From Holophagaceae bacterium (GTDB lineage: Bacteria; Acidobacteriota; Holophagae; Holophagales; Holophagaceae), in NCBI GenBank assembly GCA_021286765.1, contig JAJTBS010000001.1:1054001-1118000 (forward strand): a stretch of 64,000 nucleotides of DNA. The letters run 5' to 3'. The notes beneath the pieces were generated by a model, which saw only the letters and a list, made by a program, of their open reading frames with translations, did no database searches and was not told the DNA's origin. Both the position numbers and the translations under genes were made by a program. Below, in pieces: positions 20,836 through 27,332 of this stretch. How positions within the stretch are numbered: the stretch's first letter is position 1; every line of letters starts with the position of its first letter.

Positions 20836-23634
20836 TCACTTGCAGGCCAGCCAGCTGTCCCCGGTCCGTACCTCGGCGGCCAGCTTCACGCCCAGGGCAC
20901 CCAGGTCATCGGCGCCCTCCATGGCCTCCTTCAGCAGGGCCGAAGCGCGCTCCACCTCCTCCGGCGGCGCCTCCATGAGCAGCTCGTCGTGAACCTGCAG
21001 CAGCAGCCGCGCCCTCAAGCCCTCGGCCAGCAGGCTGCGGTGCAGCCGCACCATGGCCCGGCGCATCAAGTCCGCCGCGGTGCCCTGGATGACGGTGTTC
21101 ACCGCCTCGCGCAGGCCGCCGGCCTGGAATCGCTTGTCGCTGCTCTGCAGTTCCGGGATGCGGCGGATGCGACCCCAGTGCGTGCGGACCAGTCCCTCGG
21201 CGATGGCCCGGGCCTTGGTGGTTTCGATCCACTCCGCCACCTTGGGCATGCGCTCGAAGTAGCGTTCGATGAAGGCTTTGGCCTCCTTCTGGCTGACACC
21301 GATGTTGGCCGCCAGGGCAAAAGCCCCCTGGCCGTAGAGCAGGCCGAAGTTGACGGCTTTGGAGGCGCTCCGCTGCTCGGAGCTGACCTGGTCCATGGGC
21401 ACATTGAAGACCTCCGAAGCCGTGCGGCGATGGATGTCCTCGCCGGCCTCGAAGGCACCCAACAGCACGGGATCCTCGGCCACGGCCGCCACCACCCGCA
21501 GCTCGATCTGGCTGTAGTCCGCGTCCAACAGCACCCAGCCGGGCTCGGGCACGAAGGCGCCCCGGATGGCGCGACCCTCCTCGGTGCGGATGGGGATGTT
21601 CTGCAGGTTCGGATCATTGGAGGCCAGCCGTCCCGAGGCCACCACCGCCTGGTGCAGCTTGGTGTGCACGCGTCCCGTGACGGGGTTCACCATCTGCGGC
21701 AGAGCCTCCACGTAGGTCCCCAGCAGCTTCACCATCTGACGGTGGCGCAACAGCTCCCGGGCGATCTCCGCGTCGTGCTTGGTGGCCAGCTCCTCCAGGG
21801 TTTCCTCGTCGGTGCTGGGCACCTTGGTCTTGCCGGTGTACTTCACGGGCTGGTAGCCCAGCTTGCCAAAGAGGATGGCGCCCAGCTGGGTGGGGCTGTT
21901 GAGGTTGAAGGGCTCTCCCGCGAGTTCAAGCACCCGGGCCTCGGCCCGCTTGCGCTCACCGTTCATCTGCACGCCGAGTCTGGCGAGGACTTCCAGGTCA
22001 AGCCGGACCCCGTGGCCCTCCAGGGCCGCGAGTACCTCCACCAGGGGCAGGTCCACTTCCTGGTACAGCCGCTTCAGCTGGTCATCGGGAAAGGTCGCCC
22101 GCAGCTTGTCACAGAGCTGCAGGGCCAGGTCGGCATCCTCGGCGGCGTACTGCACGGCATGGTCGAAGTCGGCCTCGTCGAAGCGCTTCTGGGCCTTGCC
22201 CTTGCCCAGGACCTCCTCAAAGGCGATGGGTTTCACATCCAGCAGGCGCACGGATAGGTCGTCCAGGTTGTGGCGGACGCCGCTCTCCAGCAGAAAGCTC
22301 AGGATCATGCTGTCGTCGGCCAGGCCGGTCACCGGCAGGCCATGGCGGGCCAGGACCTGGAGGTCGTACTTGAGGTTCTGGCCGCATTTCCCGACAGCGG
22401 GATCTGCCAGCAGCGGCGCGAGGATCTGCCGGGCCTCTGCGAAGGGCAGGTTGCGGGGGTCCAGGTGCGGGGCCAACTCCGCGAAGAAGGCCCCGGCATC
22501 GCCCCGCAGATCCAGCAGCGTCTCTGGCAACCCGCTGTCCGGCAGCAGACCCGGCAAAGCCCCTTCGGTGTCGGCCGTGGCCGGTTTGAGATGGGCCAGG
22601 GGCACGTAGAGGCCTTCATTGGGCGCCCAGGCCAGGCTCAGGCCCACGAGGTGGCCGCGCGTGGGATCGATGCTGGTGGTCTCGGTATCCAGGCCGAAGC
22701 GGCCGGCCGCGCGGCAGGCGGCGGCCGCCGCTTCGAGATCCGCCAGGGAGGCAGCCGACCGGTATTTCCGCGTGCTGCCCGCCTGCTCGGCACTCTGGGT
22801 GAACTCCTTGGTGAGGGACTGGAAGCCCAGCGCCTTGAAGGTCTCCCGGGCCTTGGCCTCGTCCACACCGGGATAGACGAGGTCTTTCGGGTGCAGGGCC
22901 AGCTCCAGGTCTGTGACGACGGTGACCAGGCGCTTCGTCAGGTCGAGCCATTCCGAGGCGGTCTCCAGGCCCTCCCGCTGCTTGGGCTTCAGCTCGGCCT
23001 TGGAGGCGATCACCCCATCGAGGCTGTGGAACTTCTCCAGCAGCTGGGCCGCCCCCTTCTCCCCGATGCCTGGAACACCCTTCACATTGTCCGAGGCGTC
23101 GCCCACCAAGCTGAGGAAGTCCACCACCTGCTCGGGCCACACGCCCATGCGCGCCTTCACGCCCTCACGGTCGTGCCACACCTCCCCGTCCTTGGTGTTC
23201 AGCACCTGGATGCGCAGATCATCGTTGACCAGCTGGAGCAGGTCTTTGTCCGGGCTGACGATGACGGCGGGAAGGCCCATGGACGCGGATTCCCGGGCCA
23301 GGGTGCCCATGACATCGTCGGCCTCGTAGCCATGCAGTTCCACGATGGGGATGTTCAGGGCCTCCACCAGCTGGCGGATCATGGGGATCTGCGGCCGCAG
23401 GTCCTCGGGCATGGCGTCACGGTTGGCCTTGTATTCCGGGTAGATCTCATGCCGGAAGGTGGGCTCCGGCGTGTCGAACACGCAGGCGATGTGGCTGGGC
23501 TTGTGCCTCTCCAGCAGCTGCAGCACCAGCCGCGTGAAGGTATAGGCCGCCCCGTTCTTCAGCCGCGGATTGGCAAAGTAGCTTCTGAAAATGAAGGCAA
23601 AGGTATCGATGAGGTAGAGGCGATCCTCAGCCAT
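20836..23634 (-). CDS. polA: DNA polymerase I
   Basis: A 932-residue replication/repair polymerase with all three activities. The 5'-3' exonuclease occupies ~residues 1-290. The 3'-5' proofreading domain is intact: Asp316 and Glu318 in FGLDTETTS, NLKYD, and YAAEDAD. Polymerase motifs are A (DADYSQIELR, Asp706), B (RSASKAVNFGLLYGQG) and C (LLQVHDELLME). Start 23634 has GGAGG six bases upstream and gives MAEDRLYLIDTFAFIF. That ribosome binding site and start codon lie within a 103-bp repeat that has copied the beginning of the gene upstream twice more (see repeat entry); a frame-consistent ATG at 23703 runs through the repeat and is less likely. Confidence 0.95.
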   Translation of the reverse strand: MAEDRLYLIDTFAFIFRSYFANPRLKNGAAYTFTRLVLQLLERHKPSHIACVFDTPEPTFRHEIYPEYKANRDAMPEDLRPQIPMIRQLVEALNIPIVELHGYEADDVMGTLARESASMGLPAVIVSPDKDLLQLVNDDLRIQVLNTKDGEVWHDREGVKARMGVWPEQVVDFLSLVGDASDNVKGVPGIGEKGAAQLLEKFHSLDGVIASKAELKPKQREGLETASEWLDLTKRLVTVVTDLELALHPKDLVYPGVDEAKARETFKALGFQSLTKEFTQSAEQAGSTRKYRSAASLADLEAAAAACRAAGRFGLDTETTSIDPTRGHLVGLSLAWAPNEGLYVPLAHLKPATADTEGALPGLLPDSGLPETLLDLRGDAGAFFAELAPHLDPRNLPFAEARQILAPLLADPAVGKCGQNLKYDLQVLARHGLPVTGLADDSMILSFLLESGVRHNLDDLSVRLLDVKPIAFEEVLGKGKAQKRFDEADFDHAVQYAAEDADLALQLCDKLRATFPDDQLKRLYQEVDLPLVEVLAALEGHGVRLDLEVLARLGVQMNGERKRAEARVLELAGEPFNLNSPTQLGAILFGKLGYQPVKYTGKTKVPSTDEETLEELATKHDAEIARELLRHRQMVKLLGTYVEALPQMVNPVTGRVHTKLHQAVVASGRLASNDPNLQNIPIRTEEGRAIRGAFVPEPGWVLLDADYSQIELRVVAAVAEDPVLLGAFEAGEDIHRRTASEVFNVPMDQVSSEQRSASKAVNFGLLYGQGAFALAANIGVSQKEAKAFIERYFERMPKVAEWIETTKARAIAEGLVRTHWGRIRRIPELQSSDKRFQAGGLREAVNTVIQGTAADLMRRAMVRLHRSLLAEGLRARLLLQVHDELLMEAPPEEVERASALLKEAMEGADDLGALGVKLAAEVRTGDSWLACK

Positions 23635-23828
23635 GAGCCACCTCCGCGCCCAACGGCGAGGCCTCGCGTATCGGCGCAGCCGATACCGAGAGAATGAAGG
23701 CAAAGGTATCGATGAGGTAGAGGCGATCCTCAGCCATGAGCCACCTCCGCGCCCAACGGCGAGGCCTCGCGTATCGGCGCAGCCGATACCGAGAGAATGA
23801 AGGCAAAGGTATCGATGAGGTAGAGGCG
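23590..23828. repeat. 103-bp tandem repeat covering the polA start (two full copies plus 33 bp)
   Basis: Copies lie at 23590-23692, 23693-23795 and (33 bp only) 23796-23828, and the shared parts are identical. Read on the polA strand the order is R33-E70-R33-E70-R33. R33 encodes polA codons 5-15 (RLYLIDTFAFI). E70 carries a hairpin (GTATCGGC-TGC-GCCGATAC), a 12-base perfect palindrome (GCGAGGCCTCGC), then a GGAGG ribosome binding site, ATG and three codons (Ala-Glu-Asp). Before the first R33 there is a different start, ATG plus Pro-Glu-Asn. Because 103 is not a multiple of 3, each upstream copy runs into a stop after 36 codons. Confidence 0.95.
23627..23737 (-). CDS. 36-codon leader ORF 2, overlapping the polA start
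   Basis: It starts in the second repeat copy with the same GGAGG and ATG as polA. The first 15 residues (MAEDRLYLIDTFAFI) equal those of PolA, then the frame enters the hairpin element and ends ...EVAHG with TGA. The stop falls eight bases inside polA (ATGGCTGA), so ribosomes finishing here could restart on polA. Whether a stable peptide is made is unknown; it may be only a by-product of the duplication. Confidence 0.4.
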   Translation of the reverse strand: MAEDRLYLIDTFAFILSVSAAPIREASPLGAEVAHG

Positions 23829-23840
23829 GTTTTCAGGCAT
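23730..23840 (-). CDS. 36-codon leader ORF 1 (possibly the ancestral polA start)
   Basis: It starts at an ATG with only a weak GGGGG upstream, reads MPENRLYLIDTFAFI, which is PolA-like with a different residue set at positions 2-4, then follows the hairpin element and stops 36 codons on, overlapping leader ORF 2 by 8 bases. The unique codons 2-4 suggest this was the original polA start before the 70-bp element entered. Inference from the repeat structure. Confidence 0.4.
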   Translation of the reverse strand: MPENRLYLIDTFAFILSVSAAPIREASPLGAEVAHG

Positions 23841-25285: not shown

Positions 25286-25573
25286 CTACTTCTTTTTGGC
25301 TGGGGCCTTGGCGGCCCCCTTGCTCTCGATCTTCGTGGCCACCTGCTTATAGGTCACGGTGACCTTGTCCCCGGCCTTGATGGCCTCTTTTCCGGCGGTA
25401 CCGCCATCCGTGTAGAAGCGCCATTCCTCCTTGCCCAGATCGAGGGTGAAACTGTCCGTGGAGACTTCCTTCACGACGCCGGTCTTCTGGTAGCTGGCGG
25501 CCGCGGCGGCCCAGCCAAGGGCGGCACCGAGGATGGCAGTGGCAGCGACGGCCGCGATCGACTTCAGGCGCAT
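25286..25573 (-). CDS. small secreted or membrane-anchored hypothetical protein
   Basis: A 95-residue protein with an N-terminal hydrophobic segment (residues ~5-27) and a compact beta-rich body (GVVKEVSTDSFTLDLGKEEW, then AGDKVTVTYKQVATKI), like the small OB-fold DUF5666-type domains, followed by a lysine/alanine tail (KAPAKKK). No recognised family. The start has GGAGAG upstream. It follows the ispH-ubiA gene at 40 bases and ends at a strong hairpin, so it may be the tail of that transcript. Confidence 0.65.
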   Translation of the reverse strand: MRLKSIAAVAATAILGAALGWAAAAASYQKTGVVKEVSTDSFTLDLGKEEWRFYTDGGTAGKEAIKAGDKVTVTYKQVATKIESKGAAKAPAKKK

Positions 25574-25613: not shown

Positions 25614-27332
25614 TCAAACGACGACCAACAGACCCAACAGATAGAAGCTGAACTCCGGCCGAAGCTCGAAGGCGGGCCGGCCCGCATTGAAGCGCTCGTG
25701 GTAATACCACTGGTAGAGCAGCGGATAGATCAGCGCGGAGGCCATGATGCCCGCCTCCCACAAGGCTCCGGGGGCACGGGCGGGGATGGTGAGCCCGATC
25801 AGCACGAGCAGGATGGCCGAGAGCAGCCCGATGAGAACCCGTTTGGCGGTCTGCTTGCCCATCAGGATCGGCAGGGTGTCACGGCCGAGCACCTGGTCGT
25901 TCTGCATGTCCCGGATGTCATAGATGACCGTGCGGGAGAAGCCCAGGGCGGCCACCAGGACAATCGCGGCAAAGGTGTGCAGGTCCCAGCGGCCCCCCTT
26001 TACCCAGTTGGGCATCACCACCGCGACCACACTGAGGGCGGCAGCCACCAGCACGTCCTTGGCCCCCGGCAGCGCGCTGAGGCTGATCAGCCGGTTCCCC
26101 AGGCGGAATCCCCGCTTGTAGGTGGACCCCAGAAGGCTGGCAAGGGTCACGATCAGAAGGGCCCGCCAGTCCATGAGGGCCGCCGTCCCGATGGAGACCA
26201 CGAGGGAAGCGCAGGCGATGCCCAGGAGGGCGACCCGGTTCCGGACGAGGAAGCGCTCGCGGCCCGGCCCCTTGGCGCCGAGCCCCAGAGGATCCAGGAA
26301 TGGGTTGAGCAGGTACATCGCCAGCACATAGGTGCCTGTGATCAGAGGCGAGCGATACCCGAGCGAGAGGCCCAGCCACTTCTGGACCCCCAGCGTGGCG
26401 AGGGCGGCACCCAGGGCCATCACCACCGGCGTCGCGAAGGCGCTCGACATGAAGTGGGCGAACTTGCCCGGAGCGTCGCCGACCTCTTCGAGCACTTCCA
26501 CCACCTCATCCACCAGCCAGGTGGGCGTGGAGGCGCCCGCGAGCACGCCAACGGTTTCTCTGCCGGTGAAACCGGCCAGATCCAGCTCCGAAGCTGTTTC
26601 CACATACTGGACGGGCTTGCCGTAGTGGTGCGCCAGCTCGGCCAGGTGCTTCGTATTGCTGGAGGCCTTGCCCCCCACCACGATCACCGCATCGACCGTG
26701 CGGGCCAGCTCCCGGGCCTCGTCCTGGCGCATCCAGGTGTCCTCGCAGATGGTGTTCTCCAGGACGGCATCCTCCGCGCGGTCCCGGATGTAGCCGCTGA
26801 TGGCGTGGTAGTCCTTGACGGTGAAGGTGGTCTGGGCCACCACCAGCACCTTCTTCAGTTGGTCGTCGGTCAGCGCTTCGGCTTCGGCCATGTTCGCCAC
26901 GATCACCGAGCCGCTCTCCGCGAAGCTCCGGTGGGCCACGCTCTCGGCATGGCCGTGGCTGCCCAGGATCACCGTGAAGTAGCCCTTGGGGCTCCACTTC
27001 TTGATCTTGTGGTGGACCTTGGCCACCTCGGGACAGGTGGCATTCACGATCTTGAGTTCACCCTTGGCCTGCCGCTCCTTGAGGCCCCGCAGGTCCTGGA
27101 TGGGGATGCCGTGGGCGCGGATCACCACCGTGCCGCTCTGCACCTGCTCCGGCGTCTCCGCCACCGCCACGCCCCGCTTGCCGATGAGATCCAGCGCCTG
27201 GGGATTGTGGATGAGGGGCCCCAGGGTCTGCACCGTGCGGCCGTCGTTCCGCACCGAGGCCTCCAGAACCGCGTCCATGGCGCGCTTCACGCCCCAGCAG
27301 AACCCCGCAGTCTTGGCGACGATCACCTTCAT
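25614..27332 (-). CDS. ispH: fusion: 4-hydroxy-3-methylbut-2-enyl diphosphate reductase (IspH) + UbiA-family prenyltransferase
   Basis: A 572-residue two-domain protein. Residues 1-~288 are a complete IspH, the last MEP-pathway enzyme (HMBPP to IPP/DMAPP): cluster cysteines Cys12 (GFCWGVKRA), Cys100 (NATCPEV) and Cys196 (NTICEDT), His42, His74 (RAHG), His128/Glu130 (GHAES), QTTFTVKDY, GKASSNTKHL and AGASTPTWLVDEV. Residues ~296-572 form a hydrophobic domain with about eight helices, a first Asp segment (LLNPFLDPLG) and the UbiA second motif DIRDMQNDQVLGRDTLP (472-488). UbiA enzymes prenylate acceptors in the membrane. No stop or frameshift separates the halves. An Rrf2/IscR-like palindrome precedes it. 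Confidence 0.92.
   Translation of the reverse strand: MKVIVAKTAGFCWGVKRAMDAVLEASVRNDGRTVQTLGPLIHNPQALDLIGKRGVAVAETPEQVQSGTVVIRAHGIPIQDLRGLKERQAKGELKIVNATCPEVAKVHHKIKKWSPKGYFTVILGSHGHAESVAHRSFAESGSVIVANMAEAEALTDDQLKKVLVVAQTTFTVKDYHAISGYIRDRAEDAVLENTICEDTWMRQDEARELARTVDAVIVVGGKASSNTKHLAELAHHYGKPVQYVETASELDLAGFTGRETVGVLAGASTPTWLVDEVVEVLEEVGDAPGKFAHFMSSAFATPVVMALGAALATLGVQKWLGLSLGYRSPLITGTYVLAMYLLNPFLDPLGLGAKGPGRERFLVRNRVALLGIACASLVVSIGTAALMDWRALLIVTLASLLGSTYKRGFRLGNRLISLSALPGAKDVLVAAALSVVAVVMPNWVKGGRWDLHTFAAIVLVAALGFSRTVIYDIRDMQNDQVLGRDTLPILMGKQTAKRVLIGLLSAILLVLIGLTIPARAPGALWEAGIMASALIYPLLYQWYYHERFNAGRPAFELRPEFSFYLLGLLVVV

Follow-up and report, generated by a model that had tools for sequence, protein, structure and literature searches.

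The window analyzed here is a stretch of 64,000 nucleotides from a Holophagaceae bacterium (assembly GCA_021286765.1, contig JAJTBS010000001.1, positions 1,054,001 to 1,118,000), in which the start of polA, the gene for DNA polymerase I, is multiplied on the minus strand (20836-23840). Intact polA (20836-23634) encodes 932 amino acids with the Pfam DNA_pol_A domain and 5'-3' and 3'-5' exonuclease domains, and it begins at the innermost of three polA starts, whose ATG codons lie at 23840, 23737, and 23634, exactly 103 bp apart. The outermost copy (codons 1 to 15; 23796-23840) starts with ATGCCTGAAAAC; the second copy, found by the repeat search (23693-23737), and the start at 23634 both read ATGGCTGAGGAT. 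All three have the same 33-nt segment of codons 5 to 15, and between successive starts come a hairpin, a tail, and a Shine-Dalgarno (SD) sequence. The first hairpin (23764-23794) is 31 bp long, with a 13-bp stem, a bulged G, and a 3-nt loop, and leads into a tail (23738-23763) with the SD sequence GGAGG at 23748-23744, which is kept in relatives; the second (23661-23691) is followed by a tail at 23635-23660 with GGAGG at 23645-23641. Each upstream start opens a 36-codon open reading frame (ORF), the leader, with its TGA inside the next ATGGCTGA: leader 1 (23730-23840) overlaps the second ATG, and leader 2 (23627-23737) overlaps the ATG of intact polA.

Tandem Repeats Finder reports a 103-bp unit in 2.3 copies at 23590-23828 with 100% matches, and a repeat search of the window finds a pair of 103-nt repeats at 99% along with three copies of 49 nt. 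The original prediction, made from the sequence alone, had described these 103-bp units, the three starts with their identical 33-nt segment, and 36-residue ORFs ending inside the next start, and all of this is borne out. We take the array to be real and not an assembly artifact, because single-contig relatives have the same array; the copy number given here is as assembled.

polA starts in relatives

We surveyed polA starts in sampled species of the genus Geothrix (47 genomes) and the family Holophagaceae. A single start is found in 37 species, and 23 species from three genera have two to four starts, with a period of 103 bp in every one of the 23. Leader ORF length and stop overlap are likewise invariant across the multistart species, and the leader stop lies at the intact start in 23/23, including G057, where the hairpin has decayed. 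Relatives with a single polA copy have no hairpin upstream. The single-start Geothrix species mostly have the upstream sequence CCTGCCAGACTGG..ATG and the ATG-NCN-GAA-GAC start in common with the outermost copy; the inner copies have an altered start, mostly RTG GCT GAG. This shared upstream sequence and start type indicate that the outermost copy is the ancestral one, as had been predicted, nor did the polA 5' ends of relatives all turn out to carry an unrelated upstream sequence.

The ratio of nonsynonymous to synonymous changes (pN/pS) is 0.04 in the innermost copy, a sign of strong constraint, versus 0.25 in the less constrained outermost copy. This difference argues that polA is read from the inner start, in agreement with the original view that the start in use now lies downstream. 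Outer and inner copies resemble each other slightly more within species (0.874) than they do across species (0.835), which hints weakly at concerted evolution. In the leader residues past the polA-like part, pN/pS rises to 1.05-1.24, which led us to reject the leader peptide as an object of selection and suggests that the frame and its stop matter and the peptide does not. The geometry at polA is that of translational coupling. The original prediction had offered attenuation or coupling of polA translation; the coupling geometry is there, nothing was found to show attenuation, and the leader peptide past its polA-like part bears no sign of amino acid selection.

On a polA tree of 59 species, hairpin presence requires at least 15 changes and its placement is near random. 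Such scatter would be expected if recombination between the direct repeats readily removed the hairpin and species also recombined with one another. It also bears on the possibility that the array is a selected regulatory leader, an attenuator or ribosome-controlled switch, with translation controlled by the hairpin together with a second helix that sequesters the SD sequence. The constancy of ORF length, stop overlap, and the 103-bp period would suit such a switch, as would covariation in the hairpin (97.9% of cells in the polA stem pair, with three doubly changed pairs) and a CCTC-GAGG helix that is formed in 95.5% of cells. However, the many changes on the tree, a pN/pS of about 1 beyond the polA part, and the presence of the same hairpin at many unrelated genes, and in antisense at gene 3' ends, make such a regulatory leader quite improbable.

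In three relatives (G016:C32, G030:C1, and G006:C7), polA and the upstream gene that adjoins it in the window are about 5 kb apart, suggesting that genes were inserted there.

A dispersed 31-bp hairpin

The hairpin is a dispersed repeat of 31 bp with the consensus TCTCGGTAT-NNNC-NNN-GNNN-ATAC-G-CGAGAC, which includes an outer stem TCTCG/CGAGA and one bulged G. A search of all 47 Geothrix genomes with the pattern TCTCGGTATNNNCNNNGNNNATACGCGAG found 2 to 29 copies per genome in 47/47, and the reversed pattern, used as a control, gave 0 matches. The hairpin is present in 8 of the 11 Holophagaceae genera (67/77 family genomes), and in a GTDB-wide scan all but two of the records among the matches listed are labeled Holophagaceae, Geothrix, or Acidobacteria. 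A scan of the IMG/VR viral collection returned no match; a phage or plasmid origin was rejected, with matches at chance level and none in viral contigs. An Rfam search gave no match near the gathering score. The inner stem covaries strongly across 158 copies (one pair, for example, is G-C in 99, C-G in 49, and A-T in 5). Conservation across loci is limited to the hairpin and a few bases, with a CCTCC extension at some loci, and the left flank shows a weak motif, C-N-T-C-Y, preceding a T.

These results redraw the element as first described. A REP-like palindromic element is indeed involved, in the form of the dispersed hairpin; the proposed 70-bp recurring unit occurs in the host genome just as the two polA copies, which are also the only hairpins of that genome, and it is the 31-bp hairpin that recurs elsewhere. 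One of the two proposed palindromes, an 8+8 palindrome, is as described, and the second (GCGAGGCCTCGC) occurs only here and in a few other species, with GCGAGACCTCGC in most relatives. Nor does the element supply a ribosome binding site and start codon: the conserved repeat ends at the hairpin, and both signals lie in duplicated or adjoining sequence.

Repetitive extragenic palindromes (REPs) are palindromes of 20-40 bp dispersed in bacterial genomes, at times inside replication and repair genes, including that of DNA polymerase I (PMC3733652). The hairpin resembles the GTAG/CGTC families of REPs in being a dispersed, imperfect 31-bp palindrome within that size range, with a bulged stem, and it might have been mobilized, as a REP, by a REP-associated tyrosine transposase (RAYT) or an IS200-type Y1 transposase. 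Yet the consensus of the 158 copies shows neither a GTAG nor a CGTC tag, copy numbers are 2-29 per genome, long gene-end duplications flank the hairpin, and the REP paper is silent on duplications and target sites (PMC3733652). Moreover, Y1 transposases occur in 5/47 genomes, whereas the hairpin occurs in 47/47. We therefore rejected RAYT/Y1 as a general mobilizer, and a Y1-mobilized REP is a very remote explanation.

Some hairpins without a duplication (L063-L070, L080, L081, and L087) are contained in larger inverted-repeat elements whose ends resemble CACCACGA...TCGTGGTG and after which comes the shared sequence RAACTGAAAT. Here the hairpin may have entered a miniature inverted-repeat transposable element (MITE) that later spread.

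Duplicated gene ends and their lengths

In a first set of 124 hairpin clusters, about half directly adjoin one direct-repeat copy of a gene start or stop, with the other copy across the hairpin. The distance between the end of the hairpin and that of the second copy (tested range, 12-260) is not spread over this range. Most loci have 71-77, one has 38, several have 123-128, and a few have 139 or 147; one composite array has 193. A second set of 40 regions from six other genera yielded 24 significant cases, and 24/24 follow the same length classes, with distances of 37 (n = 1), 72-77 (n = 21), and 124-126 (n = 2). Grouped by the gene at the site, there are 32 clusters, which come to about 29 loci when split ones are merged by eye; in about 23 the distance is 71-77. 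The duplication is near full length at L212 (73/74), L208, and L152 (over 116 bp); at other loci its outer part is unmatched, and likeness is left in the coding part alone. Target genes include uppS, rpsT (S20), nuoJ, cydB, and genes for ThiF, DUF502, NFACT domain, and biotin/lipoyl proteins and for enzymes of the mannose-1-phosphate guanylyltransferase and carbamate kinase types. The hairpin has its left edge toward the orphan copy and its right edge toward the intact gene, at gene starts and stops alike; it is also found in antisense at gene 3' ends. Because this orientation is the same for both targets, the length rule would belong to DNA insertion rather than to RNA function.

The array could also have arisen by ordinary tandem duplication, if slippage or unequal crossing over copied a segment containing a nonmobile hairpin that already lay upstream of polA. 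Its perfect tandem structure and varying copy number are what this process leaves behind, and an older or partial hairpin does remain at the outer edge of three arrays elsewhere. On the other hand, the outer-edge hairpin is absent in 72/75 tested arrays, single-copy polA relatives have none upstream, and the same hairpin with the same distance rule is found at about 29 unrelated genes. Tandem duplication is thus unlikely, and outer-edge remnants, at 3/75 arrays, were rejected as a general origin. One locus (L342), a candidate fresh insertion with a perfect 72-bp duplication, was dropped for having part of an older hairpin at its edge.

At all ten 5' locus types in Geothrix, a leader frame stays open across the hairpin and tail, and its stop falls either on the intact start or no more than about 10 nt from it. 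The overlap is ATGA at six of these types and an 8-nt RTGGCTGA type at polA and one more; in the rest, stop and start are a few bases apart. The exception is one of the four ThiF copies (L199), which is not cleanly read in the frame used. In the other genera, 8/9 loci with a separate start follow the leader-stop rule. L315, where the hairpin is inserted in frame, is the sole such exception named. At gene 3' ends, a mirror ORF rule was not seen, in that no consistent start or overlap was found. The insertion phase is fixed as well (one phase in 20 locus types), and we discarded this as evidence of coding selection: the target motif alone, which was trained on the same sites, gives that phase in GC-rich coding DNA at about 90% of sense and 60% of antisense sites.

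Three further observations concern the spacing and divergence of copies. At a gene 3' end (L061/L073; G001:C7:98249-98620), six successive hairpins follow each other with a 68- to 71-bp period, an amplified case of the short duplication class. Hairpin pairs at G055:C236:278-348 and G069:C49:13633-13703 are just 42 bp apart, outside the other length classes. At L198 (G011:C2:140514), two copies of a gene 3' end are only about 65% alike, yet the coding sequence seems intact in both, as though one had been acquired from a different lineage.

Probable insertion with target duplication

Small palindromic repeats are common in bacteria, and we know of little that explains how they spread without breaking genes. 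Here the rule is visible in the product itself: a hairpin, a duplication of near-fixed length, and an intact gene. The polA start array is one conspicuous instance of a hairpin repeat that is spread through the family and follows a length rule. We consider it probable that insertion with target duplication, followed by expansion and contraction at polA and by coupling of PolA to the leader, accounts for the locus. The hairpin would have entered between two copies of a target duplication of 70-odd bp, leaving the inner gene copy whole, and copies that spared a gene in this way would have survived at gene ends. The polA insertion would be old, and the repeats would then have grown and shrunk by recombination between copies, giving the one to four starts in relatives and the three seen here. 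Ribosomes from the old outer start would translate the 36-codon leader, terminate at the TGA in ATGGCTGA, and begin again at the inner start codon, which has its own SD sequence; PolA synthesis would thereby be translationally coupled to the leader and its expression preserved. Known empty sites support insertion: polA itself in 37 species and, in the window, a gene ending in KKK-stop (25286-25573, minus strand), which lacks the hairpin here and has it at the same 3' end in G001, G002, and G005.

Several observations weigh against this explanation. No duplication is detectable at about half of the clusters of the first set and at 16/40 regions of the second. The polA tail is unlike the native upstream sequence, and a full 72-bp duplication at polA is extrapolated from other loci. 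The three arrays with an older or truncated outer-edge hairpin would also fit tandem duplication from an outside hairpin, and at L329 the hairpin has gained a stop that breaks the leader rule. No transposase was identified; Y1 transposases (PF01797), confined to the 5 genomes mentioned, are absent from that of the window. Finally, the putative coupling is read from geometry.

More tentatively, we propose that an undescribed 31-bp hairpin family inserts into Holophagaceae genomes and in doing so copies a defined length of target DNA, usually about 72 bp and in fewer cases about 36, 124, or 139, so that genes hit near their ends are rebuilt, with coupled minicistrons at their starts. We put a moderate probability on a new mechanism of insertion. 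The length rule points to a definite, identifiable enzyme or replication step, and a candidate that would explain the length classes is a step, fork- or nuclease-based, whose length is built in. Our search of the open-access literature found no report of the hairpin element in Geothrix or Holophaga, nor of the gene-end duplications, which is weak evidence of novelty.

Among known systems, mycobacterial interspersed repetitive units (MIRUs) are the most similar in their working: they are described as inserting at start codons, with the MIRU ORF coupled to the gene at a -4-nt spacing (PMC12548453). The same ATGA overlap occurs here at six 5' locus types, a likeness in geometry that does not establish membership. 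MIRUs were compared by description; by contrast, our hairpin is located within the gene, whose start is duplicated, the overlap at polA is 8 nt, gene 3' ends are also targets, and matches are, among those listed, almost wholly from Holophagaceae. YPAL/RU-2 of Yersinia is likewise small, palindromic, and mobile, and its target duplications vary in size; it is 168 bp long, however, and its duplications, at 3-26 bp, are much shorter than those found here, with no fixed-length clustering mentioned in the portion of its description consulted (PMC2229807). Rickettsia palindromic elements (RPEs) resemble the hairpin as palindromic repeats in coding sequence, and the hairpin is open in the frames seen, but RPEs are read in frame inside proteins, whereas here the intact gene is regenerated beside the hairpin at nearly all loci. 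Set beside a MITE, which has terminal inverted repeats and a short target duplication matching an insertion sequence in the genome, the whole element is one hairpin and its duplications are long. The target duplications reported for the small bacterial repeats compared fall far short of these.

Among relatives, the one to four polA starts form a natural series in which the coupled translation of a repair polymerase can be studied, and annotated gene starts at hairpin loci in Geothrix are not to be relied on. Elsewhere in the window (25614-27332, minus strand), a single 572-aa protein combines an IspH/LytB domain with a UbiA prenyltransferase domain.
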